DNA from: Hygrophila difformis
Taxonomy: Eukaryota; Streptophyta; Magnoliopsida; Lamiales; Acanthaceae
Assembly (NCBI GenBank): GCA_030278955.1
Contig: JAOANR010000003.1
Location: 34,490,054-34,554,053 of the forward strand
DNA length: 64,000 nucleotides
Reading direction: 5' to 3'
Shown here one piece after another: positions 1,318 to 61,200 of this stretch (its first letter is position 1; the number at the start of each line of letters is the position of its first letter). Both the position numbers and the translations under genes were made by a program. The notes under the pieces are model-generated. The model ran no database searches and was not told the DNA's origin. It saw only the letters and a program-made list of their open reading frames with translations.

Positions 1318-1364
1318 CTGAAAGAAAAAGGGGAAAAACGGTTTGGGTCAGCAAAACGTGCTGA
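1318..1364 (-). promoter_or_regulatory. Conserved LTR stem-loop plus acceptor-like signal
   Basis: Plus-strand arms are TCAGCA (1348-1353) and TGCTGA (1359-1364). In element sense the 3' arm ends CTGAC, a branch-point-like motif, and a pyrimidine-rich tract ends in CAG (plus-strand CTG at 1318-1320). The site lies 384 bp from the LTR 3' end. The same arrangement recurs in six other LTR copies in this window. The splice role is inferred. Confidence 0.55.
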
Positions 1365-1655
1365 GTAAGTTAACACCTAGCATGATTTAGGGGTTTCAAA
1401 GCCTTTAATTAAATTAAATAAAATCATGCTTGTAGGTAATACACCATTTAAGTTAATCATCCACTAATAAATAAATGGCATAATTTAACACAAGGATTTC
1501 CACGTGATCATAATTCAATTTACATGGTAAAATGATTTGCAAGGCATAATTTAAACAAAGAAAATATTCAAATCTCTAAATTTTCTCATGACTTCAGGAC
1601 TTGGTATTTTAAGGATTTCACTCTTTCACTTTTGTTCGATATGATCTAGTATAAC

Positions 1656-1899: not shown

Positions 1900-3726
1900 T
1901 AAGAACACATTTCGTAAATTTCACAAGTTTCTCAAAATATAACTTTACACAAGTCGTTGTCTTACTCCGTAATTACTTAGAAATTCATTTTAAGTCCGAA
2001 AATTCTGAAATTTCACCGGTAACTTGAAAACACAGAGACGAACAAGTTTCGTATAAGTTTCCCGATCCGGGTTAAGGATACGAGTCAAAAATCAAGTCTT
2101 TCACCAAAGTAATATGCTGTCAGGTTTCAGATTCGACACCGTTCAAAGATTCAACCTTTTAACATATCAAATGGACTCCAAAAATTCTGAAATTTTATAT
2201 GCACATACTAGACATGATTTCCTACAACTTTTATTTAGATTGTAAATATCAAATCGGACTAGAAAATATAGAACCATGCTCATCAAATTCGGACCATTGC
2301 ACTATCAGATTTCGAAAAAGGTTTTAAATCATAGTTTATGTTCGGATCGATTTGGGGAAGCAAACGTTGATGAAAATTGATGAAATTTTTACACAACATA
2401 GTTCAATGTGTTAGGATCAAAAGTCTAGTTTTGAGTTTTTCAGTTTGAACTCTTGAAATAAGGGTTTTGATCCGATTTCAAATCTGTCACAGTTTCAAAT
2501 TCGACTTTTATAGCAGGTTTGTTGGAGGCCGTTTTCGGATAGCAAAACACAATAAAAAATTATGAAAATTTTACACGAACTAGGCCTATGTCTTAGGAAC
2601 GCTTTTCGTGTTTTGAGTTTTTCCGTTTGAGAAGTTTTAAGGGTTCGAAAAATTCGCACCAAATCGTTGCGCCGGGGGTTTTTCGTGTTGACAGATTTTA
2701 GAGTTGTTAAATCCCTACGTTTGGTTGCATTTTAAGTCACCCAAAACCAAGTAAGCATTAATTTACAGTGGGGATGATGTCTAGGACGTTTTCGGATTGA
2801 TCGTGGCGCCCACGCTTGCTACGAACACGTCTCAATTACTCCGTCTCCTTTCCGTTGGCCCCACAATCTGGAACACTAGAGATGTTGCTCTCCATGCCTT
2901 CTTCGTCAATTTTCGTCGCCGGAAAATGATCGGAAAGTCGTCGGATCGGTTTTGGATGAACAAGGGAGAAGTTTTGAGAGTTTGGGAGGAAATGGGGGCT
3001 GTTCTAGGGTTGTGTGTCGAAAATAATGAGTCCCATCACCTCCAAATCCGACCATATAGCCTTTCCTTTGCTTAAGATTGAGTTACCAAAGTCGGGGGTC
3101 GAAAATATGGCAAGAAAATCGCATAATCGCGCAAGTTGGCAGCTGATGCTGCACTGGCGCGGTGGTGGCGCGGTGCTAGGCCAACGGGCGCGCGGCGGGC
3201 GCGCGGCCCGGTCTGGGCCGTGCGTTCGGACTGGGCCGTGCGATCCCGTCGGGCCTTTTCTCCTCTCTTCCGGACTTCTGTGCTCCTACGTTTTCGGGCT
3301 CGATTTTTCGGGTCATTCTCGGATTATAAATTCTTATCTTAAATTAATCTCGTCTCGAATTAATCCCGTACTCGAAATCTTGAGTCCGTCGCGTTTGGAT
3401 TCGTCGGCTTCTAATTCGTCGTCTTTTGACTCCCGTGCAACAATTTATCTAATTAAATTATTTCCGACTTCACGGGTTCCTGGAATTAAAATTCTTTTCT
3501 TTCTTGAATTTAATTCCAATTCTTTTGACTCGATTCATGGAATGTCTTCGGGCTTCCTTTCCCTCTTTTATTCCATTTTGAATTTTTGAATCTTTCGGCG
3601 TTTAATTTCCGAGCAATAATTTATTGTGATAAATTATTTTCTTCTTCTCGGAGATATTTCGACCTTGATTGGATAAAGAAATAAATTTTATTCCTTTGGA
3701 CGCCGATAAAAATCTCGGGTATTACA

Positions 3727-12376: not shown

Positions 12377-12422
12377 CTGTAAAGAAAGGAATAAAAATGG
12401 TTTTGGTCAGCAAAATTGCTGA
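12377..12422 (-). promoter_or_regulatory. Conserved LTR stem-loop plus acceptor-like signal
   Basis: Plus-strand arms are TCAGCA (12407-12412) and TGCTGA (12417-12422). In element sense CTGAC is followed by a pyrimidine tract and CAG, seen as plus-strand CTG at 12377-12379, 30 nt from the branch-like A. It lies 389 bp from the LTR 3' end. Confidence 0.55.
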
Positions 12423-12782
12423 GTAAGTTAACACATGCATGATCGTAGGGTTTAAAAGCCATAAATTTAATAATTTAACAAAAGCATGATAATATCATAA
12501 TATTTAGTTTCATCTAATCCATATCCAATAGCATAATTTATCTCAGGCTCTATTTAATAACACATATCACATGGTTCAAGATAATAGCCATAATTTAAAT
12601 AAAGCATTTAAATAATTTTAACTTGACAACAATATCATTTAATTTAGTTTAATTTAATTTAGAATCCCCATTACATTCCCGATTTGGTATTTCAAAGTTT
12701 CACGATAAAAATCGCGATGTCAACAAGTTTAGCCGGTAGCCCGGCGGCCGCAACCGTATCAGCCATACCCAGTACCACTCCG

Positions 12783-12826: not shown

Positions 12827-14784
12827 TAAGTTTCGCCGTTTAGGCAATCCATATCTCAAATTTAGCGTGCGGGGTCACCATCGTCCATTACGGCACGAAG
12901 TGAATCGTTAGGGGGCACCCTGCAGAGCACTCACCCCTAATTTTAATCTATCAAGTTTGTAAGGGGATTTAATTTTTAAAATCTGCCTTCCATTGTATTC
13001 ATTTAGAAATAATATCTCAATTCGTTTCAACCCTAAAGGTTAATTCCATGTTTCAACAAGATTTCAAGATTTCGTTTCGGTAAATCACAGTTTACTCCAA
13101 AATTCGTCTAAAATCCGATTTTAATTCCAAAAATTCCAAAATTTCATATCTGACTCGGAAACATCAAGATCTACAACTTTCGTGTTTTAACTTTTTCAAT
13201 CCGAGATACCTAAGTAGGTCAAAATCGCCAATCTTCACATAAGAAGAAATCTTTCCGAGTTTAATATGTCACAGTTTAAAGATTTCAAATTCTACCATAT
13301 CAATTCAACTCCAAATTTAATGAAATTTGACAGGGATCATCTTAAGACATTTATCAACAACTTTCATGTTCGGCCAAAGATCTAAAACAGCCTAGATCCT
13401 ATGTCAAAAATGTGATCAAGATCATTCCTAAGTTCTGTCCAAGATTTCGAGATCTAGAATCAAACAGTTCGGTTTCAACGGGTTTTCACATATCAAATCA
13501 ACTCCAAAAATTCCCAAATTTTTACAGTAGCTAGGTCTAAGTCTTAGGAACGTTTTTCGTGTTTTAAGTTTTTCCGTTTGAGTTCGTTTTAAGGGTCGGA
13601 AAAATTCACCAAATCTGTTGCGTCGGTAGAAACACAAAAGTGGACAGATTTATGGTTCTTGTTGAATCTTTTAGGTTTCGAATGTTTTAAAATCTCCCAA
13701 AACCATGTAAGGTTAACTTACAGTGTCTATGAACATCGGGATGTCTAGTTCGGAGGCGTGGCTTCCAGATCACCGTTTCTCCTCTCCGTTCGTCGGGTTC
13801 TACGATCTAGATCCAATACGGGGTGTAGAAAGAAAAAGGAGATGATTAGGATTCGTTTTCGAATCGTTTATTGACTAGAGATTGGATCGAGACTTACCAC
13901 GACTATGGAGATCTGTAGGGAAACTCGTCCAACAGCGTTCGTCTTGGTTTCGTGCCTTCGACGACTCCGGATTTAGGGTTTCGAATGTATAGAATGTTAT
14001 AGGGTTTTGTAAACTTGTTTGGGGCTCCCAAGGGGCTTATTTATAGAATTCTTAATCCCTAGGGCGTCCACAACCGACCTAAAGGTCTGGAGTCAAGAGA
14101 TGTTCAACCGAAAGTCGAAAAATCCGCGTTCGGGCGAGAGATTCACGCAACAAACGAATCTGTGGGGTGGCGCGGTCGTGGCGCGCTGAAGCCACTTCAC
14201 CGCGCGGCCACCGCGCCGACTTCGCCTGGACTTCGGTCCTGGCGGGTCGTGCGATCCGTCGTGCTTTTCCGCCTCTCTTTCGGGTTTCTATCCCTCTATG
14301 CTCCCGAATTCCGATTTCCGGGGTATCTTCGGGTTCATACTTTCTCTCTAAATTTTCGCTCGAGTCTAATTGGATGTTTTGGACTCGAATACTCGAGTTC
14401 ATTAGTGTCGGGTTTTGGTGTACCATTTATCCATCCTTTTGTTTAATTAAATTCCTTTAATTCCTTTTTAAGTAAAAATCTCATTTCTCATTTCCTTATC
14501 TTTATTTATTTCTTTTATTTGCTGGATTTGTTTATTTATTTATAGTATTTATTTTATTTATTATTTATTTATTTAATTATTGTTTTACTTTATGTTGGAA
14601 AATTCTCGGGTATTACACTAGATCTTGCAATTGGAGAAGTGTAATTAAACGAAAAATCAAATTAGTGTAGCCCCAATGCTACACTTCCACATTTAACTCC
14701 TTATACCAATTTTTGCGGCTCCATGATTCCTGCAAGCAACAATACCCAATTGGTTAGGTCTTCCCCTCAAATCAACATCCTCAT

Positions 14785-19240: not shown

Positions 19241-19555
19241 TGTAACACCCCGAATTTGATAACCCAGGCCGGGATGCCACCGCCACACCTCCCAAGCAAG
19301 ACACGAGTTCATTCGAGCTCGCTTGAGAGATGCAAGGCTAAAGGTATTTCAAAAATAATTCAAAAACAAGCCCAAAGGATTTACTTTAAAATAACATAGT
19401 ATAATTCAAATAAGTCGCAGCGGAAAATTAAAATATGGGCCGACATGGCCAAAACGCAGTGGGTAATTTAAGTCTAACAAAATACAATATTCACAATTCC
19501 TAATTTAATTCCCGAGCCCCAATGTGCGTGCATGCTCATGCCATTCCTTCATACT

Positions 19556-19605
19556 CTGTAAAAGAAAAATAAAACAACGGGTTTTATCAGTATATAAAAT
19601 ACTGA
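19556..19605 (-). promoter_or_regulatory. Conserved LTR stem-loop plus acceptor-like signal
   Basis: A 7-bp stem, TCAGTAT (19587-19593) with ATACTGA (19599-19605), lies 346 bp from the LTR end. In element sense CTGAT is followed 31 nt later by CAG (plus CTG 19556-19558) after a T-rich tract. Confidence 0.6.
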
Positions 19606-19895
19606 GTAAGTTAATTCTTAACATAACAATAATGGGTTTTAAAAATGTAATTAATAAAAATTCTCTTTTTTTTTACTCATGCACATTTTATAGTATAAAA
19701 ATGTATTTTGTCAACATTAATAATAAGAATTTAACTGCATGATTCTAAACGTAAAGAGACGTACACAAATACTAAGGATATAAATTTTAGAAATTAGCAT
19801 AAAGGAATTTATTATAAGTCAAAGGGTTTCATAATTCATGGGATAGATTATATGTTCTCGCATAGCTAATATTTCATTCTTCTACTTTTGTTTTC

Positions 19896-20195: not shown

Positions 20196-22226
20196 TGTAA
20201 TACCCGGGGTTTTTACAACGCCCAAAGAAACGAAATAAAATTTATTTCCGAGAAGAAAATAATTTATTACAATAAATTATTGCTCGGAAATGGCGTGACC
20301 GATAAATTCAAAGAATTCGAACCCAAATTTTGGTCAAGTCGAAATGGGATGAAAGAGGGAAAGGAAGCCCGAAGATATTGCATGGATTAATCCCAAAAGA
20401 ATTGGAATTAAATTCAAGAAGGAAAAGAATTTTAATTCCAAGAACCCGTGAAGTCGGAAATAATTTAATTAGATAAATTATTGCACGGGAGCCACAGGAC
20501 GACGAATTCAAGCCGACGGATTCGAACTCGACGAATTCTTGATTTCAAATATGAAATTCATTGGAGTCAAAATAAAATTCAGAAAGGAATCGTAACCCCA
20601 GAAATGACCCGAAAAGTCGAACCGAAAACGTAGGGGATAGAAACCCGATCGAGAAAAGGAGGAAAGACCCGACGGAGCAAGCGAACCGCCGAACCGGCCG
20701 GTCCGACCGGCCCGCGCCCGCCGTGCGCCGCCGCGCGGCCACCGCGCGGACGGAGACATCGCGACTCCAGGCTGGTCGCGCGTGCTCCGCGCGGGCAAAA
20801 GCTTAGGTGCGCGTCACCAGCGCGCCAGAGGTGCTGAAGGTGTAAACTTTCCTTCCATGGCAATTTTCTTGCCAAAAATCCGACCTCAATCGGTGGCAAG
20901 TCGATCACAACAATTGGGAAGGGCATAAGAACAGATTTGGGCGCCCCCAACCCATAGTTTCAGAAAACAAAACCCTAAACACTCCCAAACTTCCTCTCCA
21001 AGTCAAAACCCCTCCGAATCGACTTTCCGGCGAGTATTCCGGCGACGGCAAGGCGAAAGGAACCAAGCCCTGCCCTCTAGATTCTTGGTAAGCTATTGTA
21101 CAAAGTTTTAGTTCGTCCATATATCTCAGAAACTCGGATTCTAACCCTTTTTCCTTACTACGATTTCACGTCGGAAAACGAACAAAAAGCGATCGGAGAA
21201 GTTGGCCGTTCGTCGTGACCCTAGGACGTCCGGAAACCCAATCCAGCGACCCTATTCTCTAACTAAGTAAGTTAAAACCTTACTCACAAATTTTCGTGGT
21301 TGTTTGTTGTTTAAATCTCGAGATATAGGCTAGTAACAAAAATCGGTTTTCAAAAACCCTATTTTCGTCCAATTTTAAAGACTCGCCAAAAACTCGACCT
21401 TCGGGAATTCAAACCGAAAACCTTTCAACATAAAAGTTGTTCCTAACACCTTTATCAATCTTGTGTCCAAATTTCAGCCGTTGACATTAAGTTTTGCTAT
21501 CCCAATTTTTGCCGTGAACTTTCTGTATCGAACCGAACAATTTAATTCTGTGACAGATTCCTTCATTCAACTTGATGCATGTTTTTCACCCATTTTTCGA
21601 ATGATTTAACTTTGCATTCCTAAACAAAAGTTGTAGATAATTGTGTCTAGATTATGCATATAAAATTTCACGGATTTTGGTGTTCATTCGATATGTCAAA
21701 CGTCCGAGTTTTCAAAACTGTTTTGAAATCGTTTTAAGGGCCATGAGTATGCAGTGAGTTGCACTCGATTTTTGAGTACCAAGAATTCATTATTTCCAAA
21801 TTCTTAAAACACAAAAGTTGTTCCTTAATGTGTCGTGTAGTTACTGTAAAAATTTCACTTCGATTGGTTTTGAAATGAATTTTTAATCGGCGTTGCACGA
21901 ACCTGTGACGAAAACAGTTTTCAAGACATAAATTAATCTTTGCAATAAACTCGAATTTCAACTCACTTCGGAACCTTATTTCCAAAAACTTAAAACATGA
22001 AAGTTGTTCGTGTGCGTGTTTTTGAATTACTGTAAAAATTTCAGAATTTTTGGAGAAAAGACGAATTTTTAATTAAGAAAGGCGTAAACTGCCTCGAATA
22101 GGATTTTTTCGAACTTGAGAAAACTCGAACTATGAAAACGCGATATCGATCATTTGATAACATTGAAATACGAACTTTCGAAAAATCCCGTTCACTATGC
22201 TGAGCCGATCTTCATACAAATTATTT

Positions 22227-22589: not shown

Positions 22590-22898
22590 TCTTGTGTGGT
22601 GTCCTCTTCTTAGTTTACGGGATGAAATATAAAAGACTTGTGTGAGTGTTTATTTACGCTTAAATCGTATTTACTATGTTTTTAAATTATATATTCAAAT
22701 TACGCAGTCTGAAATTATGTTTTAAATTATGCTTTTAAATTAAGTCCTTAAATTATGTATTATCGTCTTGAATAAATTAATCATGCTTTTCCGCTGCAAG
22801 TAAACTATGAATTTTAAATTAATTTCGTAACGCATGAAAAGTGTAATTTCAATTAAACACATGTAACCCCTTAAATTGTTAGTTAGGGATTAACTTAC

Positions 22899-22947
22899 TC
22901 AGTATTTTATATACTGATAAAACCCGTTGTTCATTTTTCCATTACAG
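22899..22947 (+). promoter_or_regulatory. Conserved LTR stem-loop plus acceptor-like signal
   Basis: TCAGTAT (22899-22905) pairs with ATACTGA (22911-22917). CTGAT then leads through a T/C-rich tract to ACAG ending at 22947, 30 nt from the branch-like A. The upstream flank TAACTTAC is shared with the other LTRs. Confidence 0.65.
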
Positions 22948-23265
22948 AGTACGGAGCATGATCATGCATCGGGGGATTACTTTGGGCATTTAATTATTTG
23001 TTTTACATGACATGCATACGGGCTTGTTAACCCGAGTTTTGGCCATGTCGCCCCTGTATTTTAATTTCCGCTGCAACTTATTATTTTTATCATGTATGGA
23101 TGATATTACATTGTTATTTTTAAGTAATTCCGGACTTGCTTTTAGAACATTTTCCAACGCTCATAGCCTTGCATCTCTTTAGCAAGCTCGGAGAAACCGT
23201 GTCTTGCTAGGGAGGTGCGGCGGTGACACCTCGGCCTGGGTTATCAAATCCGGGGTGTTACAGAG

Positions 23266-24709: not shown

Positions 24710-25034
24710 TGATTTGCACGTATTGATCCATTTTGATGTCTTATTGGAGTGTTCTGCATTTCAGGTACAAAATTGGAGTAAAAATGAATTTGGCTTGAAA
24801 AACATCAAAATTGTGGAATAAATGGAGAAGTAGCAGGTGGTATGCCCACGCATAAGGGCTTTGGTCTGAGCTGCTGTCAAATACGGTTGCTGACATATTT
24901 CCAGCTCGATCGCTGAGGTGTTCTGTGACTTGGAGATTGATTTTCACCATCTTGAAAGATAAATCCTTGGGATTTTAGGATCTTGGAAAGTATCTAGTGG
25001 CTGGGAAACTTATTTCCAAAAGAGAAGTGAAGAA
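24710..25034. other. Unclassified sequence right of the gap
   Basis: No gag or pol similarity is visible. The phrases TGATTTGCACGTATTGATCC, GCATTTCAGGTACAAAATTGG and CATGCCCACGCATAAG resemble Athila/Tat-type LTR regions as I remember them, but no border was found. It is not the continuation of the gag on the left of the gap. Confidence 0.35.
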
Positions 25035-25363
25035 TTCAGTCCTAAACTTTTATTTTGTTCTATTTAGTCCTCTACCCCAATCACTCATTTTTATATTAAT
25101 TGGCCTTAAACCTTTCAAATTATTTCATTTTAGGCACAGAACCTTAAATTTTTTATTATTACTAATACATTTATCAAATAAATGCCCAACATACTTCCGT
25201 AAATAAAATTAAATACCAAACCTCATACATTGGGTTTGACCGCCTTGTTACCGGGTCTTTGAAGTTCCGAATTTTACGGACTCTCTCTAACCACCCGACC
25301 GTAACGATGGTTCATTGGTTCTGGTTTCCTTCAGCAACAATCAGCACAATCATACTTTGTGGA
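25035..25363. repeat. Left arm of a large inverted repeat
   Basis: It is the reverse complement of 34945-35290, roughly 90 percent or more by eye, with small indels. Outer ends match from AATTCAGTCC; inner ends fade after the ATCATACTTTG region. With the Gypsy element at 25405-34847 removed, the arms would be separated by only ~130 bp. Confidence 0.88.
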
Positions 25364-27283
25364 CAATAAAATTCAGGCTATTTTTTTAATATTTTTAATA
25401 ATATTGTAATACCCGAGAAATCAACATCGAGTATTAAATCCGAAAAAAAATTATTAATTGAATTAATTAATTGGATTTAACTATCGCAATCGAAATAATT
25501 CCGGGAGAGCGGAATTAAATATTTTCGCACGATAGCAACTCGAAGAGAGTTATCGGAATATCCAACAATCGGATAATCCAATATGATTTTTAAGATCAAA
25601 AATCATATTATAAAAAAAAAAAAAAAGGGGATGAGAAAATCGCTGCCTGGGGTGGCGCGGTGGCCGCGCGGTGGCGCGCCACCAGCGCGCCGCCACCCCA
25701 GTAGCAGCGTTTCAAACGCTGCTACGCGTTTTCATGCTTGTTTTGGCATTAAGTTCGATCTTAATGCCTTGAATCTATCCAAACCCCTTTCTCAGATGTT
25801 GGTGAGTGTATTGAGACTCTAATGGACGAATCTAGAAGCTTCTAGAACCATTTTATGGCTGTGAAGTTGGGAGAATGCATGCATTAGGATGACTCTTGCA
25901 CCAAGGAGTGATTAGGTGGTTTGGATGAGTTTTGGGGGAGTGTTTTCCAAGAGGGACTGCCATTACTTCGTCCTTCATAGTCCCTAGGGCCTTTAAGCCA
26001 CCATTGGGAACCTTAACATCCCATTCTTTACCCTCAATCAGTCCCCAAAATCCCTCATACACACTAATCCGAAAATCAGTCTTCTCTTGAGTGTTGTGAG
26101 TTGGTGAGAGTTATCCATCTTGTTCTTGGGGCTTTGGTCGAGTTGAAGCATTCCAATCCCTTCTCCTACGTCCAGGTAAGGTCTCTAAACCAATTCCTTG
26201 TTCGTTACTTCGAATTCTAGGCCCTAACATCAAGCTTTTATCCAAACACCTCAAAATAGGATTCGTTCGGTAGATCTCGGAGGTTTGAGGCTGTTCCGGT
26301 CGAGTTTGAGGATTCAACCAAAGAGGTTTTCGACACTACACTCTTGAGAAGTAAGTTAATGATGTGTATATCAATTTTTAGAGTGTTTGGTTGAGTAATC
26401 TTCGAGATATAGTTCAATCTTCATCTTGTGCCAAATCTGTCAACTAGGGTTTCTATCCGAGTAGTTTATTTGTTCAGCGTTTTTCGTCAAGATCCGTTCA
26501 CTTTTGGAAGAACTTGTCTAAATGAAAAATGTTCCTAACACTTTAAAGATGATGTCTGTAAATTTTCATAATTTTTGGAATTGATTTGGTCGACGAAAAC
26601 GGATCTGGTATTTTCTGCTATACTTGGTGACAGATTTTAATTCCTAGCATGTTCAGTTTTGTAGTTCATATTTCTCCTAGCCATGGTCGTTTTTGATGGT
26701 CGACTTCTTCATGAAAATTGTTCATCTATGTGTCTAGTTTACTCCTGTTAAATTTCAGAATTTTTGGAACAACCTTCGAATTGATATGGATTTTTGAGTA
26801 AGCTGTGGTCGGATGAACAGTGGTACTTGCACCCTTTTGAAAACAAGTTTCTGAAATGAATTTTTTTGAGTGACTTAGAGTCCGAATTTGCTAAGGCCTA
26901 TTTCTGAGAAAAATGTTTATTTTGATGTCGCCTAGCACCTGTAAAATTTTCAGAATTTTTCACAAAGTTTTACTACATTTCCTAATACGCTTTTGAAAAC
27001 TGCCACAGTGTAGTCTTACCGGTGAAATTTGGTTTCGTACGTTTCGGTAGTTTTTGAGTCGATTGCTACTCTTTTACGAATCCTATGAATTCTGGAAATG
27101 TAGATATATGTTGTGATGATCAAAATGTGGTTTTGAAACTTTGTGAGTTTTGATCGAGTTAGATGTTCAATTTGGAGGGTAAGTGCACTTGGCGTGGGCT
27201 CGTTGGGCCGCCCCCTCTTTTTTGGTGGCCAAAACGGCGCCAAGGAAATATTATTATGTTGCGTGATTGTATGAGTCTATACT

Positions 27284-27463
27284 CCTAGGTGTATCCGTAG
27301 GGGTTACCTAGGGCTCCGGAGTGTGTCTGTATAGGGTCCGCTGCTCTCACATTGTGGATACCGTCGGCTTGTGGACATAAGTGCCCAAGCGGGTAATTGA
27401 TCCCAAAACGGCTAAGGCCCTGGATCGTCGATACCGGCAGCTTGTGGACATAAGCGCCCAAGC
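27284..27463 (+). repeat. U3 hairpin cluster
   Basis: CCTAGGT (27284-27290) pairs with ACCTAGG (27306-27312) around a loop containing TATCCGTAGGGG, the inverse of the block at 50122-50151. Two further units have GCTTG/CAAGC arms (27367-27390 and 27440-27463) around TGGACATAAGNGCC. The copy in the 3' LTR is at 34107-34286. Confidence 0.85.
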
Positions 27464-27513
27464 GGGTAATGTTTTGGATGTCCTCGATCAAAATGAACAA
27501 TGGTGTGGTAAAG

Positions 27514-27520
27514 TATATAA
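27514..27520 (+). promoter_or_regulatory. TATA box of the LTR promoter
   Basis: TATATAA followed by AGG lies 50 bp after the hairpin cluster and 104 bp before the leader stem-loop. Transcription would start near 27545-27555, so the stem-loop would lie in the leader RNA. The copy in the 3' LTR is at 34337-34343. Confidence 0.6.
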
Positions 27521-27623
27521 AGGAATCCCTGTAAATTATTTTTACTCGTTCGTTAGATTAAATTCCTAACTTTTTATTACTCTTCTAAACCTTTAAATTT
27601 TGTTATGCTATACGTTAACTTAC

Positions 27624-27671
27624 TCAGTACCGTTTGTACTGATAAATTGTTATTTCCTATTTTTTTCGCAG
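27624..27671 (+). promoter_or_regulatory. Conserved LTR stem-loop plus acceptor-like signal
   Basis: TCAGTAC (27624-27630) pairs with GTACTGA (27636-27642) around CGTTT. CTGAT is followed by a strong pyrimidine tract, then CGCAG ending at 27671, 29 nt from the branch-like A. A possible donor CTGTAAAT lies near 27530. Duplicated in the 3' LTR at 34447-34494. Confidence 0.65.
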
Positions 27672-28027
27672 AGTAAGTGTTGGCGCATTGGGATGGGACT
27701 TTCCAAGAATAAGGACTTGTCGCATTTTATGATTACTTTAAATTTCTGCACTTTGGACTTTACTATTGGACTTTGGACTTTGGTTTTTGGCCGTCTGTTT
27801 GGCCCCATTTTTATTTGTTTTAGCTTCCGCACTGATTATTACTGTGATGCATGAGATACTCTGATTTTAATTCGGGTATGATTGAATAGTTTTTAAATTG
27901 TTTTGAAAAATTGATACAACTTAGCCTTAGCATTTTTCTAGATGAGCTCGACTTGGGTCGGGTCTTGTTTAGAAAAGTGTGGCGGTAATGCCCTGGCCTG
28001 GGAAATCAAATCCGGGGTGTTACAAAG

Positions 28028-28288: not shown

Positions 28289-28570
28289 ATGGCCGACCCG
28301 AGGTTACAAGATTCCATCATGCGTTTATTGTGCTCCATGTCGGATATCACGCACGAACTTCGCCATATCTCTAGGGATGCCGCAAACGATAGAAATAGGA
28401 TTGTGGCTATAGAGGAGGAGGAGTTTGACCCCGATGAGTTCATCAACGTTGAGGAGGAAGAGGAGGACCCCGAGGAGGTTGTGGAGAACCCTCCACTGCC
28501 TCTTGATACCGACGAGGAGATCGAGGCTGATCGCCGGATGCTTGGCTATTCTCCCGACTACTTGATCTAG
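28289..28570 (+). CDS. Acidic 93-aa ORF in the gag position
   Basis: The ATG at 28289 opens 93 codons. The N-terminal ~45 residues are mixed and possibly helical (MADPRLQDSIMRLLCSMSD). The C-terminal half is strongly acidic with two Glu runs and ends MLGYSPDYLI. There is no CCHC knuckle and no gag domain. It occupies the place of gag between the primer site and pol. The frame is intact although the element is otherwise only partly coding, which fits either youth or a function. It could be a replacement leader ORF, a captured gene piece or chance. I do not recognise the protein. Confidence 0.5.
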   Translation: MADPRLQDSIMRLLCSMSDITHELRHISRDAANDRNRIVAIEEEEFDPDEFINVEEEEEDPEEVVENPPLPLDTDEEIEADRRMLGYSPDYLI

Positions 28571-28842
28571 ACTTTATCATGCGTTCTATCTTGTTGGACT
28601 TTTACCGCTTTTCGCTACTAGTTCCCTATCATTTCCGTACCTAATATTATCGCATATTGATTATCTTGATGGTACCACATTTTCTGTAGTGGTGACCTAG
28701 TAGTATTTGATGTAGTAGCCTTGTTATTAAATCGTTATCATCTAGTGGAATTTCGTATTTAGTTTTCTCTTTCCTTTCTTGCCCATGTCAGTGATCTTTA
28801 ACACTTAGAACCTATGAGATTGAGTTCTAACCCTAGTCTAAC
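28571..28842 (+). other. Non-coding spacer before truncated pol
   Basis: These 270 bp of mixed sequence carry stops in all forward frames. They replace the gag C-terminus, zinc knuckle and protease N-terminus expected here. The deletion join lies near 28846-28860, where similarity to the protease of the other Gypsy element begins. Confidence 0.6.
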
Positions 28843-31800
28843 TTGACTATTAACTTTCATCTAACTGCGAATCTCATAGAATTTGACCTTAAGGATTTCG
28901 ACATCATTTTGGGAATGGACTGGTTGACGAGGTACAAGGCTGTTATCGAATGCCAGAAGCAGAAGATCTCGTTGGCGAAGAGTCGCGGAAAGAAGGTCAT
29001 TTACTATATGCAGCCTCAGAAGAAGGGTGCCAAGATAGTAAATGCATTAAAGTTCTGCAATCTCATGCAGAAGGGATACCAACTGTACGCGTGCTACGTG
29101 CATAATCTGGAAGGCGAGGAGAACAAGATCGACAATATCCCCGTCGTGAACGAATACCCAGATGTCTTTCCGGAGGATATTCCAGGAATGCCTCCTGAGC
29201 GAGAAGTGGAGTTCACGATCGATCTCGTGCCCGGAATCGAACCGGTGTCGAAGGCACCATATCGCATGGCGCCTGCTGAGATGAAGGAGCTGAAAGAACA
29301 ACTAGAGGAGTTGTTATCTAAGGGATATATTCGGCCGAGCACATCACCGTGGGGAGCTCCAGTCCTGTTCGTGAAAAAGAAGGACGGCGGACTCCGATTG
29401 TGCATCGACTACCGAGGTCTTAATCAAGTGACGATTAAGAACAAGTACCCGCTACCTAGGATCGAAGATCTCTTCGATCAACTGAAAGGAGCGTCGGTAT
29501 TTTCAAAGGTTGATCTAAGGTCGGGATACCACCAATTGCGTATCGCCGAGAACGATATACCCAAGACAGCTTTCCGAACAAGATATGGACACTACGAATT
29601 CACCGTAATGTCCTTCGGTCTGACTAATGCTCCCGCAGTATTCATGAACCTCATGAATAGCGTTTTCCGAGAGTTACTAGACACATGTGTAGTCGTATTT
29701 ATCGACGACATCCTAGTTTACTCAAGGAATAAGGAAGAGCATAGTAGTCATTTGCACCAAGTACTCGGACTTTTGAGGAAGAATCAACTCTACGCGAAGC
29801 TGTCTAAGTGCGAGTTTTGGAAGAATGAAGTCGCTTTTCTAGGTCATATAGTATCGGCTAAAGGAGTATCAGTCGACCCGGCGAAGATATCAGCAGTGTC
29901 TGAATGGCCGGCACCAACAAACCAGACCGAGGTAAGAAGTTTCCTAGGTCTAGCCGGATACTACCAAAGATTCGTGAAGGACTTTTCTAAAATTGCGAGA
30001 CCGATGACCCAACTCCTGAAGAAAGGATTGAAGTTTGATTGGACAGCTGAGTGTGAGCAGTCATTCCGTGAGCTTAAGGGGAGACTCACATCAGCACCGG
30101 TTTTAGCGTTGCCATCAGAGGCTGAGGATTATGAGGTGTATAGTGACGCCTCAAAGGAAGGTCTTGGTTGCGTGCTAATGCAAAACCGTAGAGTGATTGC
30201 TTATGCATCTAGGCAACTCAAGACGCACGAGGTAAACTACCCGACACATGATCTGGAACTAGCAGCGGTAGTGTTCGCTCTTAAGATCTGGCGACACTAT
30301 CTATATGGACGAACTTGTCGGATGTTTACAGATCACAAAAGCCTCAAGTATATATTTACTCAGAAAGAGTTAAATATGAGGCAGAGGAGATGGCTCGAGC
30401 TGATCAAGGATTACGATCTGGATATAGCCTACCATGAAGGCAAGGCGAACGTCGTAGCAGATACGTTGAGTCGCAAGATGAGGCACACGGCGAACACACT
30501 CATTCTACCTTCGGGACTGTATATGGACCTAGCTAAGTTAGATACTGAACTAGTCCATTATGGAACCGTGGTGGAGACAGTGAACGCCATAACATTTGAA
30601 TCTACCGTATTTGACGAGATTCGAGAAGCCCAACCGGACGACGAGAATCTCCAGAGGATCAAAGAAAAAATAAGTGAAGGTAAGGCGGTAGGATTCACGA
30701 CTCATGAAGACGGAAGTGTTCGTTTTAAAGGAAGATGGTGCGTTCCTCATAAGTGCGAGGAATTGAAGAGGAAGCTTATGGAAGAAGGCCACAGTACACC
30801 TTATTCAGTCCACCCTGGTGGGGATAAGTTGTACAAAGACTTAAAGAAAATCTATTGGTGGCCGCGGATGAAGAAGGATGTTGCCGACTTTGTGGCTAAG
30901 TGCATAACCTGCCAGAAGGTGAAGGCAGTAAGGCAAAAACCGCTAGGATTGGTAAAGCCATTGGAGATCCCAAGCTGGAAGTGGGACAGCATCTCCATGG
31001 ATTTTGTTTCAGGGTTGCCAAGATCTCCCCGAGGAATGAATAAGATTTGGGTAATAGTCGACCGGTTAACAAAGACCGCCATTTTCATACCAATGAAGGA
31101 AAATTGGTCGATGGATCAACTAGCTAAGGCATACATCGAGAACGTGGTCCGAAGGCACGGAGTACCGCATGATATTATCTCAGACCGGGATAGTAGATTC
31201 GTCTCCAACTTCTGGACTAAATTACAAGAAGCCTTAGGAACCCAAATCAAGATGAGCACAGCTTTTCATCCAATGACGGACGGTCAGACTGAGCGCACGA
31301 TTCAGACGCTCGAAGACATGCTAAGAGCGTGTGTACTCGAATTCAAGGGAAGTTGGGAAGACCACTTGCCGTTGATTGAATTCTCGTACAACAACAGTTA
31401 TCACGCTAGCATAGGCATGGCACCGTTCGAAGCGCTTTACGGACGGAAGTGTCGTAGTCCGTTGTGCTGGACGAAGGATGATGATTCGGCAGTTGTTGGA
31501 CCGCAGCTCATTGAGGATATGAATAGCAAGATCAAGGTGGTTCAACAGAAAATGAAAGCCGCGCAAGATAGGCAGAAGAGCTACGCCGACACTAGGCGAC
31601 AAGAGTTGGAATTTGAGGTGGGAGACAAGGTCATGCTGAAAGTATCGCCCATGAAGGGGGTGATGCGATTCGGTAAACGAGGGAAACTAAGTCCTCGCTA
31701 CATTGGTCCGTACGAGATTTTGGATCGTGTAGGTACCTTGGCTTATCGATTGGCACTTCCACCAGAGTTGTCGCGAGTGCACAACGTATTCCATGTTTCT

Positions 31801-32064
31801 CAACTGAAGAAATATGTGCACGACCCAACTCACGTGTTGCAACCCGACGTGATTGAGCTAGATGATGACTTGACATACGAGGAGTATCCGATCGAGGTAC
31901 TTGACGTCAAGGAAAGGGTCACAAGGAACAAGACTGTGAGGATGGTGAAGATCCTATGGTCGAATCATGGCACCGAGGAAGCAACGTGGGAATTGGAAGC
32001 GGATATGAAGCAGAGATATCCCAACCTTTTCCGAAGCGACTCAGGAGCAGTTATGGGGGCATAA
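28843..32064 (+). CDS. pol: Gypsy Pol: partial protease, RT, RNase H, integrase, chromodomain
   Basis: The open frame of ~1073 codons has no break. The first in-frame ATG is at 28915; the upstream stop is at 28834, so the natural start is unclear. The N-terminus holds only the C-terminal half of the aspartic protease ([10 protein letters not shown]); the catalytic DSG is absent. RT follows with FIDD at residue ~285, RNase H with [10 protein letters not shown] at ~431, an HHCC integrase zinc domain ending CITCQK at ~690, and the DDE core (MDFVSGLP ~718, ISDRDSRF ~779, QTERT ~815). A chromodomain with [13 protein letters not shown] and [13 protein letters not shown] lies at ~1010-1062. Reverse transcription and integration functions look intact. 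Particle proteins and a working protease would have to be supplied in trans. Confidence 0.92.
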
Positions 32065-32228: not shown

Positions 32229-34847
32229 TGTAATACCCGAGAAATCAACATCGAGTATTAAATCCGAAAAAAAATTATTAATTGAATTAATTAATTGGAT
32301 TTAACTATCGCAATCGAAATAATTCCGGGAGAGCGGAATTAAATATTTTCGCACGATAGCAACTCGAAGAGAGTTATCGGAATATCCAACAATCGGATAA
32401 TCCAATATGATTTTTAAGATCAAAAATCATATTATAAAAAAAAAAAAAAGGGGATGAGAAAATCGCTGCCTGGGGTGGCGCGGTGGCCGCGCGGTGGCGC
32501 GCCACCAGCGCGCCGCCACCCCAGTAGCAGCGTTTCAAACGCTGCTACGCGTTTTCATGCTTGTTTTGGCATTAAGTTCGATCTTAATGCCTTGAATCTA
32601 TCCAAACCCCTTTCTCAGATGTTGGTGAGTGTATTGAGACTCTAATGGACGAATCTAGAAGCTTCTAGAACCATTTTATGGCTGTGAAGTTGGGAGAATG
32701 CATGCATTAGGATGACTCTTGCACCAAGGAGTGATTAGGTGGTTTGGATGAGTTTTGGGGGAGTGTTTTCCAAGAGGGACTGCCATTACTTCGTCCTTCA
32801 TAGTCCCTAGGGCCTTTAAGCCACCATTGGGAACCTTAACATCCCATTCTTTACCCTCAATCAGTCCCCAAAATCCCTCATACACACTAATCCGAAAATC
32901 AGTCTTCTCTTGAGTGTTGTGAGTTGGTGAGAGTTATCCATCTTGTTCTTGGGGCTTTGGTCGAGTTGAAGCATTCCAATCCCTTCTCCTACGTCTAGGT
33001 AAGGTCTCTAAACCAATTCCTTGTTCGTTACTTCGAATTCTAGGCCCTAACATCAAGCTTTTATCCAAACACCTCAAAATAGGATTCGTTCGGTAGATCT
33101 CGGAGGTTTGAGGCTGTTCCGGTCGAGTTTGAGGATTCAACCAAAGAGGTTTTCGACACTACACTCTTGAGAAGTAAGTTAATGATGTGTATATCAATTT
33201 TTAGAGTGTTTGGTTGAGTAATCTTCGAGATATAGTTCAATCTTCATCTTGTGCCAAATCTGTCAACTAGGGTTTCTATCCGAGTAGTTTATTTGTTCAG
33301 CGTTTTTCGTCAAGATCCGTTCACTTTTGGAAGAACTTGTCTAAATGAAAAATGTTCCTAACACTTTAAAGATGATGTCTGTAAATTTTCATAATTTTTG
33401 GAATTGATTTGGTCGACGAAAACGGATCTGGTATTTTCTGCTATACTTGGTGACAGATTTTAATTCCTAGCATGTTCAGTTTTGTAGTTCATATTTCTCC
33501 TAGCCATGGTCGTTTTTGATGGTCGACTTCTTCATGAAAATTGTTCATCTATGTGTCTAGTTTACTCCTGTTAAATTTCAGAATTTTTGGAACAACCTTC
33601 GAATTGATATGGATTTTTGAGTAAGCTGTGGTCGGATGAACAGTGGTACTTGCACCCTTTTGAAAACAAGTTTCTGAAATGAATTTTTTTGAGTGACTTA
33701 GAGTCCGAATTTGCTAAGGCCTATTTCTGAGAAAAATGTTTATTTTGATGTCTCCTAGCACCTGTAAAATTTTCAGAATTTTTCACAAAGTTTTACTACA
33801 TTTCCTAATACGCTTTTGAAAACTGCCACAGTGTAGTCTTACCGGTGAAATTTGGTTTCGTACGTTTCGGTAGTTTTTGAGTCGATTGCTACTCTTTTAC
33901 GAATCCTATGAATTCTGGAAATGTAGATATATGTTGTGATGATCAAAATGTGGTTTTGAAACTTTGTGAGTTTTGATCGAGTTAGATGTTCAATTTGGAG
34001 GGTAAGTGCACTTGGCGTGGGCTCGTTGGGCCGCCCCCTCTTTTTTGGTGGCCAAAACGGCGCCAAGGAAATATTATTATGTTGCGTGATTGTATGAGTC
34101 TATACTCCTAGGTGTATCCGTAGGGGTTACCTAGGGCTCCGGAGTGTGTCTGTATAGGGTCCGCTGCTCTCACATTGTGGATACCGTCGGCTTGTGGACA
34201 TAAGTGCCCAAGCGGGTAATTGATCCCAAAACGGCTAAGGCCCTGGATCGTCGATACCGGCAGCTTGTGGACATAAGCGCCCAAGCGGGTAATGTTTTGG
34301 ATGTCCTCGATCAAAATGAACAATGGTGTGGTAAAGTATATAAAGGAATCCCTGTAAATTATTTTTACTCGTTCGTTAGATTAAATTCCTAACTTTTTAT
34401 TACTCTTCTAAACCTTTAAATTTTGTTATGCTATACGTTAACTTACTCAGTACCGTTTGTACTGATAAATTGTTATTTCCTATTTTTTTCGCAGAGTAAG
34501 TGTTGGCGCATTGGGATGGGACTTTCCAAGAATAAGGACTTGTCGCATTTTATGATTACTTTAAATTTCTGCACTTTGGACTTTACTATTGGACTTTGGA
34601 CTTTGGTTTTTGGCCGTCTGTTTGGCCCCATTTTTATTTGTTTTAGCTTCCGCACTGATTATTACTGTGATGCATGAGATACTCTGATTTTAATTCGGGT
34701 ATGATTGAATAGTTTTTAAATTGTTTTGAAAAATTGATACAACTTAGCCTTAGCATTTTTCTAGATGAGCTCGACTTGGGTCGGGTCTTGTTTAGAAAAG
34801 TGTGGCGGTAATGCCCTGGCCTGGGAAATCAAATCCGGGGTGTTACA
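32229..34847 (+). repeat. 3' LTR of the gag-less Gypsy element
   Basis: The 2619-bp copy of 25405-28024 is offset by 6823-6824 bp. It has the same internal signals (hairpins 34107-34286, TATA 34337-34343, stem-loop 34447-34465). It ends GGTGTTACA beside target duplication AATAT. Confidence 0.93.
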
Positions 34848-49807: not shown

Positions 49808-49853
49808 CTGTAAAAGATAACACAACAACTTTTTATCAGTACAATGGTACTGA
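49808..49853 (-). promoter_or_regulatory. Conserved LTR stem-loop plus acceptor-like signal
   Basis: TCAGTAC (49836-49842) pairs with GTACTGA (49847-49853). In element sense CTGAT is followed 28 nt later by TTTTACAG (plus CTG 49808-49810). 384 bp from the LTR end. Confidence 0.65.
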
Positions 49854-50121
49854 GTAAGTCAACCCGCTCCACTTTAAGAAGTGGGTTTTAAAATAGTGGT
49901 TGACACTAAAAAAAAATAATAATAATAATAATAATTTTCACTTTTTCTTTTAAAATGATCACACACATTACCTTTAACAAAATAAATAACTTTCATTCTT
50001 ACCATTGTAGCAACTATGCACAAGAGGACACCATTTTCCATATATCATATCATATCATATCATATCGATCATAAGTCATGATCAGCATGCAGCGGACTCA
50101 TATACAGACACACTCCGGAGC

Positions 50122-50151: not shown

Positions 50152-52544
50152 AGTATAGACTCATACATGCAACAACGCCGTTTTGGCACAATTTATCAAC
50201 AATGCCGTCTTGGCATATTTAGAGGGGGAGGCCCCGCAAGACACATCCCTAGTGCATTAGCCCTCTATCAAGTATGGCATCTTACTCAAGTTAATAGTGC
50301 ACAATGGATTTAAAAGAGTTTTCCACAATTTTTCACATAATATCCTCTTTAAAAGAGTTTTCAACAATCTCAAGGGAGTAACCTCATCACAAGGGCATTC
50401 AATAATGCCAAATATCATTTCAACATTTAACTCCCATATCAATATCTCATAAATATAGAAATATCATTTCATGGATCTCAAAATCCAACAATTTCTCATT
50501 TGGACAAAAAATCAAGTCCAACATCGCAGTTTACGCCAAGTCAGTTTAAAAATTCATATGAAAAGGCGATTGCTATGAAATTTAAACTGTAGATACTCAA
50601 CACATAGTTGAACAAGTTTCATGTTTTACACTTTTCAAAATAAGGTATGGAAACATTTCAAAAATTAAGTTCTTTTCAGAACATGTATTCTGCCTGAAAT
50701 TCAATAGTGACTCTATAATTTTCAAAAGGTTTTTAAAAATAGTAATTCGCGACCAAAAATTCTAAAATTTACCACAAGGTAGATAACACATAGATAAATA
50801 TTTTTCATGAATAAACGTTTTGGGTTTGAAACACTTAAGACCTTCAAAAACGAGAATTTCAGAAACACTCATTTCTTAGATTTTAACAAAAAGAGATTTC
50901 GACCTTTCGATAAAGTGGATCCCATAACTTTTTCATATGAGTTCTAAAAATTATAAAATTTTTCAGAAAGATACTCAACTCAATAAGGAACAAGTTTTAT
51001 GAAGGAACCTTTGAGGGATAATGAACCAAAATGGTTTAAAAAGATGGATCTTTACGTAAACGAAAAATTGACAGATTTTGGTATAATGGGGAAATTCTAA
51101 TTTTGTACTCTTAAAACATGGATTGGATCTCCAAAACTTGAAGTAGAGAGTGTTAACTTACTGAATTGATGTATAAGAGCAAGGAGATTCAAAGATAATG
51201 GCCGTTATAACACAAGATTCGCACCACAAATTACGGGTTTCGCTGAAATTTGACAAATAGAGGGAGATCAATTTATAGTATAAAAATAAAAGATTTAGAT
51301 CTCTAAGATACAAGTTTACAAGGAGGATATCTTACTAACCAAGTGTTGAGAAGAGTTAAAACTCTTAGAATGATGAAGGTTGCCAAGCCTACAAGACTCC
51401 ACAATCCTTAAGATATGCTCACTATGTGGGAGAACTTTAAAGAATAAAATGGGTAGTGAATTTGGCTAATGAGATGGATGAGATTGGTGTGTTTGAAGGC
51501 TAGAAACTCCCTCTATTTATAGGCTAAGATTTGAACAATTGAACATGACACATTGTGAGAGTGATTACAACCTCACCAATCATCCAATTAAGTGTGTCTT
51601 GAGCAATAATGGTTAGAGTATTTGTATCCACTCATTTGGTCCTTATAGCCTAACAAAGAGGCTATTAATTTGGGAGGCTATTAATTTTGTTCATCATGTT
51701 GTCTATTAACATAATGGTTTGCCTATTATGGAGGCTATTAATCTTGGTGGGTTCAAGAGATAATTGATCACCTTTCTTTGCTAGCCATTCATCCAAGACA
51801 CTTGTTAATCATGTGGATTTTTCATCTATTTGTTTAGGAAGAAAATTTCTTGCAATTGCTTTTAACCTTATATTTGTGTAAGTAGTGTATCATGAAAATG
51901 ATTGAAGTATTAGCTTGTCTACAAAAATCATTATTCTTGCCATTATTTAGTGGCTTGCATTTATACTCAATGAGTTGGATATGATAATATAATATTTATT
52001 TATTTATTTCAAGTATTGTATTTATATTAATGTGCTTTCAAAAAGATAATAATAATATACTTGCATGGTTTTATTTTATTCATAACAATACTCAAACCAC
52101 AAAGTCTTCATGTCATCATCAAATAAAAATTATAATCTATGAATATATTTTCTTATATATAAAAGTTAATTCTCATAGATTCACATAAAAACTCATACTT
52201 TTATTTTTATAAAAATTTATTCCATAATGAATATCAAAGTACTTAAAATATTCACATACTATCCTCATAATAATTTTCAAGACCAATGTGTATATATATA
52301 AAAACTTATATATATAATTTAAACAATAGATTTAAAAAAAATATTCCCTAAACTATATAATTCTATTACCCATGATATTGAAATTCATATTTCTTTTGGA
52401 AAAGACAAATTTACATATATAGTTTTTTCAAGTGTTGTTTTGTAGAAAAATCAATATACTAATTCTTTAAGCAAGTGATTAAATATTTAATAAAAGTCTC
52501 TTTAGTGAATTACAATTATTTCGGGTAATTTCTATGGTATTACA

Positions 52545-58228: not shown

Positions 58229-61200
58229 TGTAATACCCCGAAATTCATCCTCATAAGGTTTCAGAAATGTAACCAGCCACACTTGTCAGTCAGGCTCGCC
58301 CTTTGGCTAACTTAATTGACAAGTGCTACGGCTAAATATAAAATTTTGTAGTATGAACTTTAAAAATAATTGCCAATTTTATAAATATAGACATAAGAAA
58401 ATTTAAAGTACTTAATACCAGAGTCATTGTTCTTTCTCACGCGGAAGCATAAACTAAAGGCAATATATAGGACATTAATAATTAAAAGTACGTGGTTCCT
58501 TAAAGCAACAATCTTTTTGATGAAAGGTAATCCCATCCCCAAATGCTCATGTTATGAGATGCAGTTCACATGTCAGCTCCAATATCTGTAAAAGATAACA
58601 CAACAACTTTTTATCAGTACAATGATACTGAGTAAGTCAACCCGCTCCAGCTTTAAGAAGGTGGGTTTTAAAATAGTGGTTGACACTAAAAAAAAATAAT
58701 AATAATAATAATTTTCACTTTTTCTTTTAAAATGATCACAAACACATTACCTTTAACAAAATAAATAACTTTCATTCTTACCATTGTAGCAACTATGCAC
58801 AAGAGGACACCATTTTCCATATATCATATCATATCATATCGATCATAAGTCATGATCAGCATGCAGCGGACTCATATACAGACACACTCCGGAGCCTTGG
58901 GTAACCCATCAACGGATACACCCAAGAGTATAGACTCATACATGCAACAACGCCGTTTTGGCACAATTTATCAACAATGCCGTCTTGGCATATTTAGAGG
59001 GGGAGGGCCCCGCAAGACACATCCCTAGTGCATTAGCCCTCGTATCAAGTATGGCATCTTACTCAAGTTAATAGTGCACAATGGATTTAAAAGAGTTTTC
59101 CACAATTTTCCACATAATATCCTCTTTAAAAGAGTTTTCAACAATCTCAAGGGAGTAACCTCATCACAAGGGCATTCAATAATGCCAAATATCATTTCAA
59201 CATTTAACTCCCCATATCATATCTCATAGATATAGAAATTTCATTTCATGGATCTCAAAATCCAACAATTTCTCATTTGGACAAAAAATCAAGTCCAACA
59301 TCGCAGTTTACGCCAAGTCAGTTTAAAAATTCATATGAAAGGCGATCGCTATGAAATTTTAAACTGTAGATACTCAACACATAGTTGAACAAGTTTCATG
59401 TTTTACACTTTTCAAAATAAGGTATGGAAACATTTCAAAATTGAGTTCTTTTCAGAACATGTATTACTGCCTGAAATTCAATAGTGACTCTATAATTTTC
59501 AAATGGTTTTAAAAATAGTAATTCGCGAACCAAAAATTCTAAAATTTACCACAAGGTAGATAACACATAGATAAATATTTTTCATGAATAACTCTTTTGG
59601 GTTTGAAACACATAAGACCTTCAAAAACGAGGATTTCAGAAACACTCATTACTTAGATTTTAACAAAAGAGATTTCGACCTTTCGATAAAGTGGATCCCA
59701 TAACTTTTTCATATGAGTTCTAAAAATTATAAAATTTTCCAGAAAGATAATCAACTCATAAGGAACAAGTTTTATGAAGGAACCTTTGAGGGATAATGAA
59801 CCAAAATGTTTAAAAAGATGGATCTTTACGTAAACGAAAAATTGACAGATTTTGGTATAATGGGGAAATTCTAATTTTGTACTCTTAAAACATGGATTCG
59901 GGATCTCCAAAACTTGAAGTAGAGAGTGTTAAACTTACTGAATTGATGTATAAGAGCAAGGAGATTCAAAGATAATGGCCGTTATAACACAAGATTCGCA
60001 CCACAAATTACGGGTTTCGCTGAAATTTGACAAATAGAGGGAGATCAATTTATAGTATAAAAATAAAAGATTTAGATCTCTAAGATACAAGTTTACAAGG
60101 AGGATATCTACTAACCAGTGTTGAGAAGAGTTAAAACTCTTAGAATGATGAAGGTTGCCAGCCTACAAGACTCCACAATCCTTAAGATATGCTCACTATG
60201 TGGGAGAACTTTAAAGAATAAAATGGGTAGTGAATTTGGCATAATGAGAAGGATGAGATTGGTGTGTTTGAAGGCTAGAAACTCCCTCTATTTATAGGCT
60301 AAGATTTGAACAATTGAACATGACACATTGTGAGAGTTGATTACAACCTCACCAATCATCCAATTAAGTGTGTCTTGAGCAATAATGGTTAGGAGTATTT
60401 GTATACACTCATTTGGTCCTTATAGCCTAACAAAGAGGCTATTTAATTTGGGAGGACTATTAATTTTGGTCCATCATGTTGTCTATTAAACATAATGGTT
60501 TCGCCTAATTATGGAGGCTATTAATCTTGGTGGGTTCAAGAGATAATTGATCACCTTTCTTTGCTAGCCATTCATCCAATTACACTTGTTAATCATGTGG
60601 ATTTTTTCATCTATTTGTTTAGGAAGAAAATTTCTTTGCAATTGCTTTTAACCTTATATTTGTGTAAGTAGTGTATCATGAAAATGATTGAAGTGGTAGC
60701 TTGTCTACAAAAATCATCTATCTTGCCATTATTTAGTGGCATGCATTTATACTCAATGAGTTGGATATAATAATATAAATATTTATTTATTTATTTCAAG
60801 TATTGTATTTATATTAATGTGCTTTCAAAAAGATAATAATAATATACTTGCATGGTTTTATTTTATTCATAAACAATACTCAAAACACAAACGTCCTGCA
60901 TGTCATCATCAAATAAAATTATAATCTATGAATATATTTTTCTTATATATAAAAGTTAATTCTCATAGATTCACATAAAAAACTCATACTTTTATTTTTA
61001 TAAAAAATTTATTCCATAATGACATATCAAATTACTTAAAATATTCACATACTATCCCTCATAATAATTTTCAAGACCAGTGTGTATATATATAAAAACT
61101 TATATATATAATTTAAACATAGATTTAAAAAAAAATTCCATAAACTATATAATTCTATTACCCATGATATTGAAATTCATATTTCTTTTGGAAAAGACAA

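Follow-up and report, generated by a model that had tools for sequence, protein, structure and literature searches.

A candidate leader intron in the LTRs of plant Ty3/gypsy elements, with a conserved strand complementary to its own donor-like site

Based on the comparison of the LTRs, it was concluded that a conserved acceptor-side motif, TTRACTTAC followed by a small hairpin, is complementary to a donor-like splice site located more than 1.2 kb upstream in the same LTR; this donor-lock pairing was well supported. We proposed, at somewhat better than even confidence, that the leader of these LTRs contains an intron in which a 13-nt strand, TTRACTTAC-TCAG, covers the donor and the branch site of that same intron, so that a portion of the RNA is not spliced. 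An earlier sequence-only reading of the same DNA had described the acceptor side and missed the donor half, the hairpin probably belonging to a structure that joins both intron ends. The conserved parts, the complementarity, the compensating flanks and the sense preference of the long helix were all supported by the alignments and duplex calculations given below.

The LTR elements and the acceptor-side motif

The window, i.e. the whole stretch of 64,000 nucleotides that was analysed, looked like plant DNA and contained numerous nested LTR retrotransposons. The LTR set used consisted of A5, A3, B3, B5, C, D and G (2.6-3.1 kb; 5 and 3 mark the 5' and 3' LTRs of elements A and B) and of the truncated F and E. 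The sampling was one window with five full-length LTR types, or six with the acceptor side, which amounted to about four independent types because C and D were close relatives. The types were strongly divergent, and BLAST found only common pieces of 41-79 nt between the LTRs of A and B. The LTRs of the finding ended in GGGGTGTTACA (B5 ended in GGGGTATTACA instead), those of A, C, D and G started with TGTAATACCC, and the primer site TGGTATCAGAG adjoined the 5' LTR in elements A and B, G having TGGTATCAAAG.

Element A, with the 5-bp flanks AATAT/AATAT, was identified as Ty3/gypsy by the pol domains between its LTRs: RVT_1, RNase H, Integrase_H2C2 and SH3_Tf2-1 scored above the cut-off, rve scored below it, and the integrase followed the RT. 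Cuscuta proteins of 68-72% identity were among the 120 matches listed (7940 scored) for its pol. A Chromo match in element A, at E 0.002 and 18.4 bits, was below the curated cut-off of 25.1, and no chromodomain was found in the scanned frame of element B. The elements were likely Tekay/Del-like chromoviruses, a name guessed from the primer site, the long LTRs and the domains.

Several features of the elements were observed in passing. A 93-codon frame followed the primer site of element A (28289-28570, +), and the pol frame (28837-32061, +), whose start was late within the protease domain, gave no match to a gag family. An inverted repeat (25033-25359 and 34955-35286, 92% identical) flanked element A on both sides. 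LTR G (20196-23262, +) was preceded directly by a polypurine-like stretch and followed directly by a primer-site-like sequence, an arrangement resembling two elements joined head to tail. LTR F started inside LTR E at 19236-19245, right at the pyrimidine tract of E and, by alignment with D, 18 nt before the matching CAG.

The motif, TTRACTTAC with a TCAGYA...TRCTGA hairpin and a CAG, was carried by six LTR types in a total of eight copies, two each from A and B and one each from C, D, F and G. The sequence-only reading had listed motif sequences that were all found in place, and had assigned one layout to seven copies of five types; the layout was indeed shared and the count was too low. It had put this layout 345-389 bp before the LTR 3' end, a range that had to be replaced: the hairpin started 364-405 nt and the CAG ended 315-359 nt upstream of the LTR end. 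The spacing of 28-31 nt between the A of CTGA, which is the last base of the hairpin, and the end of the CAG was measured as it had been given.

The pattern ACTTACTCAGYA-N3..14-TRCTGAYMMA-N14..28-CAG had 8 exact matches in the window vs 0.00 expected from 100 shuffles; it was written after the copies had been seen, and the shuffle test therefore showed rarity, not independent discovery. For TTRACTTACTCAGYA, 8 exact matches were found, and 10 with at most two mismatches vs 0.57 expected. A 12-mer common to at least four of the five full-length types occurred at only two places, the motif (TTAACTTACTCAG) and the LTR 3' end. The block TTRACTTAC+TCAG was constant in six types except for the R, and the neighbouring columns agreed in four of six.

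Hairpin pairing was found in 47 of 48 cells (7 distinct rows). The earlier reading had described the stem pairs as changing together; of the seven pairs, two showed two-sided changes (4 cells, a value reached in 5 of 500 shuffles) and five were invariant. The plain count of pairs with two-sided changes was ordinary (119 of 500 shuffles as high), and so was the number of different pair types (424 of 500). Hairpin covariation alone was modest evidence because of the five invariant pairs. F and G had an identical hairpin sequence. The small hairpin showed no preference for the sense strand, the antisense being slightly better in A, B3 and C and equal in D.

The CAG was ranked among all YAG sites of each LTR by a simple pyrimidine score. 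It was the first of 41-53 sites in A5, A3, C, D and G, the first of 14 in the truncated F, and the third of 43 in B3 and B5, i.e. the first in six of the eight copies. The branch-pairing bases of U2 and the end of U1 were used for scoring, and CTGAY was the best U2 match in each of the five types examined in this way, equalled by UGUUAAC in C and D; UACUGAU or UGCUGAC matched the branch-pairing bases at 6 of 6 positions in each of them. The earlier interpretation of the motif as a 3' splice site was supported by these ranks and matches. The truncated LTR E (18861-19240) also retained the tract and CAG/AGTATG. ACTTACTC and GAGTAAGT could pair locally across the acceptor in A only, and this pairing was rejected.

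The motif pattern was further searched for in other collections. It occurred in 67 stretches of viral_contigs, none of which had the full layout with the CAG or the primer site TGGTATCAGAG; TTRACTTACTCAG was present in 9 of the 67. By eye, the flanks of the motif in these viral_contigs stretches read as coding. The full pattern was found in two stretches of genome_contigs, both without LTR ends or primer site, and the RT of element A had no relative in viral_contigs. These collections are microbial and viral and therefore said little about other plants. No Rfam family reached the gathering threshold anywhere in the window, and no TPP aptamer was recognized there.

Coordinates of the LTRs, motif copies and donor-like sites in the window
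Feature	Positions	Strand	Basis or remark
5' LTR of element A	25405..28024	+	TGTAATACCC...GGGGTGTTACA ends, primer site after LTR
3' LTR of element A	32229-34847		LTR pair 99.9% identical
TATA-like site, LTR A	25990..25999	+	picked by eye; start inferred about 33 nt downstream
Upstream donor-like CAG/GTAAGG, LTR A, possible small intron 1	26176..26181	+	similar sites in other types
Conserved donor-like site GTAAGTTAA, LTR A	26351..26359	+	
Donor arm of predicted long-range helix, LTR A	26351..26384	+	
Lock arm, LTR A (TTAACTTAC at 27615-27623)	27590..27623	+	
Hairpin TCAGTAC/GTACTGA with branch-like A, LTR A	27624..27642	+	
Candidate acceptor CAG, LTR A	27669..27671	+	pyrimidine-score rank
Donor-like GTAAGTTAA, 3' LTR of A	33174..33182	+	
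Lock motif, hairpin, tract, CAG; 3' LTR of A	34438..34494	+	pattern match
Donor-like GTAAGTTAA, 3' LTR of B	51153..51161	-	
Lock motif TTGACTTAC, hairpin, tract, CAG; 3' LTR of B	49808..49862	-	pattern match
Donor-like site with one-base insertion (GTAAGTTTA), 5' LTR of B	59930..59938	-	
Lock motif, hairpin, tract, CAG; 5' LTR of B	58586..58640	-	pattern match
Donor-like GTAAATTAA, LTR C	2758..2766	-	
Lock motif, hairpin, tract, CAG; LTR C	1318..1373	-	pattern match
Donor-like GTAAGTTAA, LTR D	13713..13721	-	
Lock motif, hairpin, tract, CAG; LTR D	12377..12431	-	pattern match
Donor-like GTAAGTTAA, LTR G	21267..21275	+	
Lock motif, hairpin, tract, CAG; LTR G	22890..22947	+	pattern match
Lock motif, hairpin, tract, CAG; truncated LTR F (donor region absent)	19556..19614	-	pattern match

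The donor-like site and its predicted pairing with the motif

A donor-like site, GTAAGTTAA in A, B3, D and G or GTAAATTAA in C, was located in each full-length type 1.32-1.68 kb before the end of the CAG and 1.26-1.62 kb before the motif; the B5 copy carried a one-base insertion. GTAAGTTAA occurred 11 times in the window vs 0.95 expected, all 11 within these LTRs, as five donors (A twice) and six motif complements. Nine columns of the donor block were constant in the five types save one base in C, and the adjacent columns agreed in 2-3 of five. The site was without a G at -1 in all five types, and better U1 matches were present elsewhere in most LTRs. The order of donor, branch site, tract and AG was usable as a plant U2-type intron in A, B3, C, D and G, with GTAAATTAA as the donor in C.

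The donor suggested by the sequence-only reading, near 27530, was not shared across types, the common site being GTAAGTTAA/GTAAATTAA, and was rejected because transcription from the TATA at 27514 would be expected to start about 32 nt after it, downstream of this donor. The TATA at 27514 was not a shared feature either and was not supported as the general start of the leader: TATAWAW was absent from the 250 nt before the motif in B, C and D, and F had one at 78 nt and G one at 202 nt.

Between an assumed start, set 33 nt after a TATA-like site chosen by eye, and the donor, two ATGs were counted in 1522 nt (five types); the putative intron held 26-42 per LTR. The LTR part of exon 3 retained 7-12 ATGs downstream of the acceptor, and therefore splicing would give no clean leader. 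In A, B3, D and G, but not in C, the main donor was preceded at 174-179 nt by a second donor-like site, which may open a small intron. A loss of this putative intron 1 from C through a spliced copy was considered and set aside as evidence, since the MAFFT gap fell at the upstream donor of G in local, not in global mode.

Two further repeats or blocks were observed in the region. A block of about 80 nt within the putative intron (27265-27345, +, in A; 58862-58945, -, in B; 12760-12835, -, in D) was about 89% identical between A and B, and the part found by BLAST recurred at 34091-34167. RNAalifold gave 22 pairs for this block, 5 of them changed on both sides, from only 3 sequences, and its single folds were unremarkable (z of -1.67 and -1.44); a second structured element may be present there. 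LTR A also had a 47-nt direct repeat (27351-27397 and 27424-27470, 42 of 47 identical) around CTTGTGGACATAAG, pieces of which, 22-26 nt long, recurred in LTR F.

TTRACTTAC was the reverse complement of the donor-like site, and the conserved blocks of both coincided. TTAACTTAC was the exact complement of GTAAGTTAA, and TTGACTTAC of B paired with it via one G-U. In A5, A3, B3, C, D and G, no site of the whole LTR was a better partner of the lock arm than the donor. The decayed B5 differed, with three other loci pairing better than the donor and with a more stable antisense duplex. A random 9-mer with G-U allowed had 0.6-1.2 full partners per LTR, and therefore some partner somewhere was not rare.

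The type-specific flanks also paired, and they did so best within their own type, C and D being interchangeable. When the 9-mer was left out, just two of the 120 matchings reached this stability at 15, 20, 25 and 30 nt alike, namely the true one and its C/D swap. Single exceptions were recorded: A with D was better than the own pair of A at 15 nt, the donor flank of D preferred the partner flank of C, and at 25 nt the donor flank of C was slightly better than the own one of G. Shuffled flanks of 25 nt reached the own value in 0, 4, 4, 3 and 1 of 200 trials for A, B, C, D and G, respectively. By the motif-side scan, 0.6-17% of windows of the same LTR were as good at 20 nt (17% in A), 0.4-2.6% at 25 nt and 0.3-5.7% at 30 nt; the donor-side scan gave a weaker result, with 0.4-7.7% of windows as good at 25 nt and 1.1-10.5% at 30 nt. 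The Fisher p for the motif-side scan with one of C and D kept was 4e-4 to 7e-4 at 20 nt, about 1e-5 at 25 nt and about 2e-5 at 30 nt.

The sense duplex was more stable than the antisense one by 0.7-15.2 kcal/mol in all five types, and a long antisense helix was rejected on this ground, with B5 as the exception. In unconstrained folds of 1.55-1.91 kb, the lock had a probability of about 0.99-1.0 for A and 0.66-0.68 for G, but only about 0.10 for D and 0 for C. For B the value was 0.9, though the one structure of minimum energy was without the lock. The 9-mer duplex was calculated at -7.3 to -7.4 kcal/mol vs -5.4 to -5.6 kcal/mol for the U1 duplex in A, B, D and G, whereas in C it was weaker (-1.1) than that of U1 (-1.6). 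The U1 end pairs with donor positions +1 to +6 only, so the constancy of +7 to +9 was unexplained by U1. The predicted openness of the donor before the lock is transcribed was 0.66-0.69 in A, 0.20-0.46 in B, 0.43 in C and 0.17-0.18 in D and G.

Proposed lock and alternative explanations

The earlier suggestion that folding could gate the splicing of the leader gained support; we infer both the splicing of the leader and its gating. In the proposed model, several related Ty3/gypsy families carry in their LTRs a leader intron, 1.32-1.68 kb long, that has the motif as its 3' end. Transcription would begin in the LTR upstream of the donor, GUAAGUUAA, and the CAG located 315-359 nt before the LTR end would serve as the acceptor. 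Nine bases of the lock, UURACUUAC-UCAG, would pair with the donor in a helix extending into the type-specific flanks, and its last four would open the hairpin that includes the branch site CUGA. UURACUUAC-UCAGYA would face the donor GUAAGUUAA and an adjoining arm that finishes with CUGA, whose final base is the branch A, so that in the closed state the donor and the branch site would adjoin in one stacked helix under a single 13-nt strand.

The choice between U1 and the lock would be kinetic. The lock arm follows the donor by 1.26-1.62 kb in transcription. If U1 bound the donor before this arm could close, the leader would be spliced; if the lock closed first, the RNA would stay unspliced and retain the LTR sequence needed for reverse transcription. 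Closing would repress splicing, and its purpose would presumably be to divide spliced from genomic RNA. Hairpins over the 5' splice site reportedly inhibited splicing in a plant study of the 1990s. The low openness of the donor in D and G before the lock (0.17-0.18) and the 7-12 ATGs in exon 3 point against a simple kinetic version. The full proposal of an RNA switch in several plant retrotransposon families, in which the 13-nt strand closes donor and branch site and a race with U1 sets the spliced and genomic shares, was held only tentatively, at somewhat under an even chance.

The alternative that fared best, though unlikely, was an ordinary leader intron near the transcription start, perhaps an expression-enhancing one, with an incidental or minor donor pairing. 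Good acceptor and donor-like sites agree with it, and expression-enhancing introns sit near the start site in the available text of one source (PMC12371167); however, TTRACTTAC, the TAA at +7 to +9 and the compensating flanks would be left unexplained. It was also considered, as a rather less probable case, that the helix acts as a zipper promoting splicing, looping out most of the 1.3-1.7 kb and joining the donor and the branch site. The outer flank helix could remain closed while the 9-mer opens, and yeast zipper stems aid splicing as far as the accessible part of their description goes (PMC12350175). Against this, the helix begins at +1 and covers the donor, and the flank part alone leaves a linker of 34-37 nt, shorter than the 42 nt given there for zipper stems (PMC12350175).

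It was judged improbable that the branch site is TTRAC itself, with the hairpin concealing the first AG (in TCAG) and bringing the CAG closer. TTRAC agrees with the branch consensus and precedes the end of the CAG by 51-55 nt, and UGUUAAC ties with CTGAY in C and D, but CTGAY scores higher in A, B and G, and both CTTAC and the donor match would have no explanation. An RNA structure serving another step (packaging, dimer formation, strand transfer or export) with no intron at all was considered very improbable: a second hairpin with two-sided changes does lie in the same region of A, B and D, yet the tract and the CAG, neither of which belongs to the paired parts, are conserved, and the 9-mer that pairs starts with a donor consensus. 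A remnant of inverted ends left by a DNA element that had inserted long ago, or a DNA or antisense-RNA structure, was barely credible, since the inverted complementarity 1.26-1.62 kb apart and the antisense preference of B5 are set against flanks that differ among types while pairing within each, and against a better sense helix in five of five types.

Relation to known systems

According to the consulted portion of a 2025 review (PMC12786077), plant LTR elements are generally without introns, Ogre and EVADE being notable exceptions. In BARE1, Ogre, CRR and Bagy2 splicing takes place within coding regions or between them, and the division of one LTR-element transcript between translation and replication is named as a major question, both in the available text of PMC3735527. 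If true, a lock built into a conserved leader intron would be a sequence-encoded answer to this division, and the lock reading predicts exact junctions that are searchable in existing RNA data. The accessible part of a survey of spliced isoforms in sunflower gave over 15,000 copies of Tekay and no Tekay element in the expressed set (PMC7730604); the group would be very abundant if the present elements are Tekay-like. An intron inside a plant LTR was not found among literature titles and abstract openings, a search in which motif letters were not used and most subscription papers lay outside the coverage. No arrangement with donor and branch site masked by one strand was found in those parts of the literature that were surveyed.

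If spliced, the leader would resemble Ogre, EVADE, BARE1, CRR and Bagy2 in partial splicing and in different RNAs per element (PMC12786077, PMC3735527). The introns of those elements lie in or between coding regions in the text available, whereas the candidate intron lies wholly inside the LTR leader. In Giardia Hsp90, complementary 26-nt stretches are present in both intron halves, which is a likeness, but according to the same partial source the splicing there is in trans and the pairing assists the reaction (PMC8494341).

A closer likeness was found in the plant TPP riboswitch of THIC, where an intron sequence pairs with the 5' splice site and controls splicing, as the available text describes it (PMC10226581). 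Unlike the present case, with its long-range partner in the LTR leader, that riboswitch has a ligand-binding aptamer in the 3' UTR. Yeast zipper stems (RPS17B and others) share a long-range stem between the donor side and the branch side (PMC12350175); by the same partial account they leave the donor and the branch site free, while here both fall within the paired region. Zipper stems and the THIC riboswitch were the nearest mechanisms, and neither, as far as these sources describe them, masks the donor and the branch site with one strand, as the lock is proposed to do.
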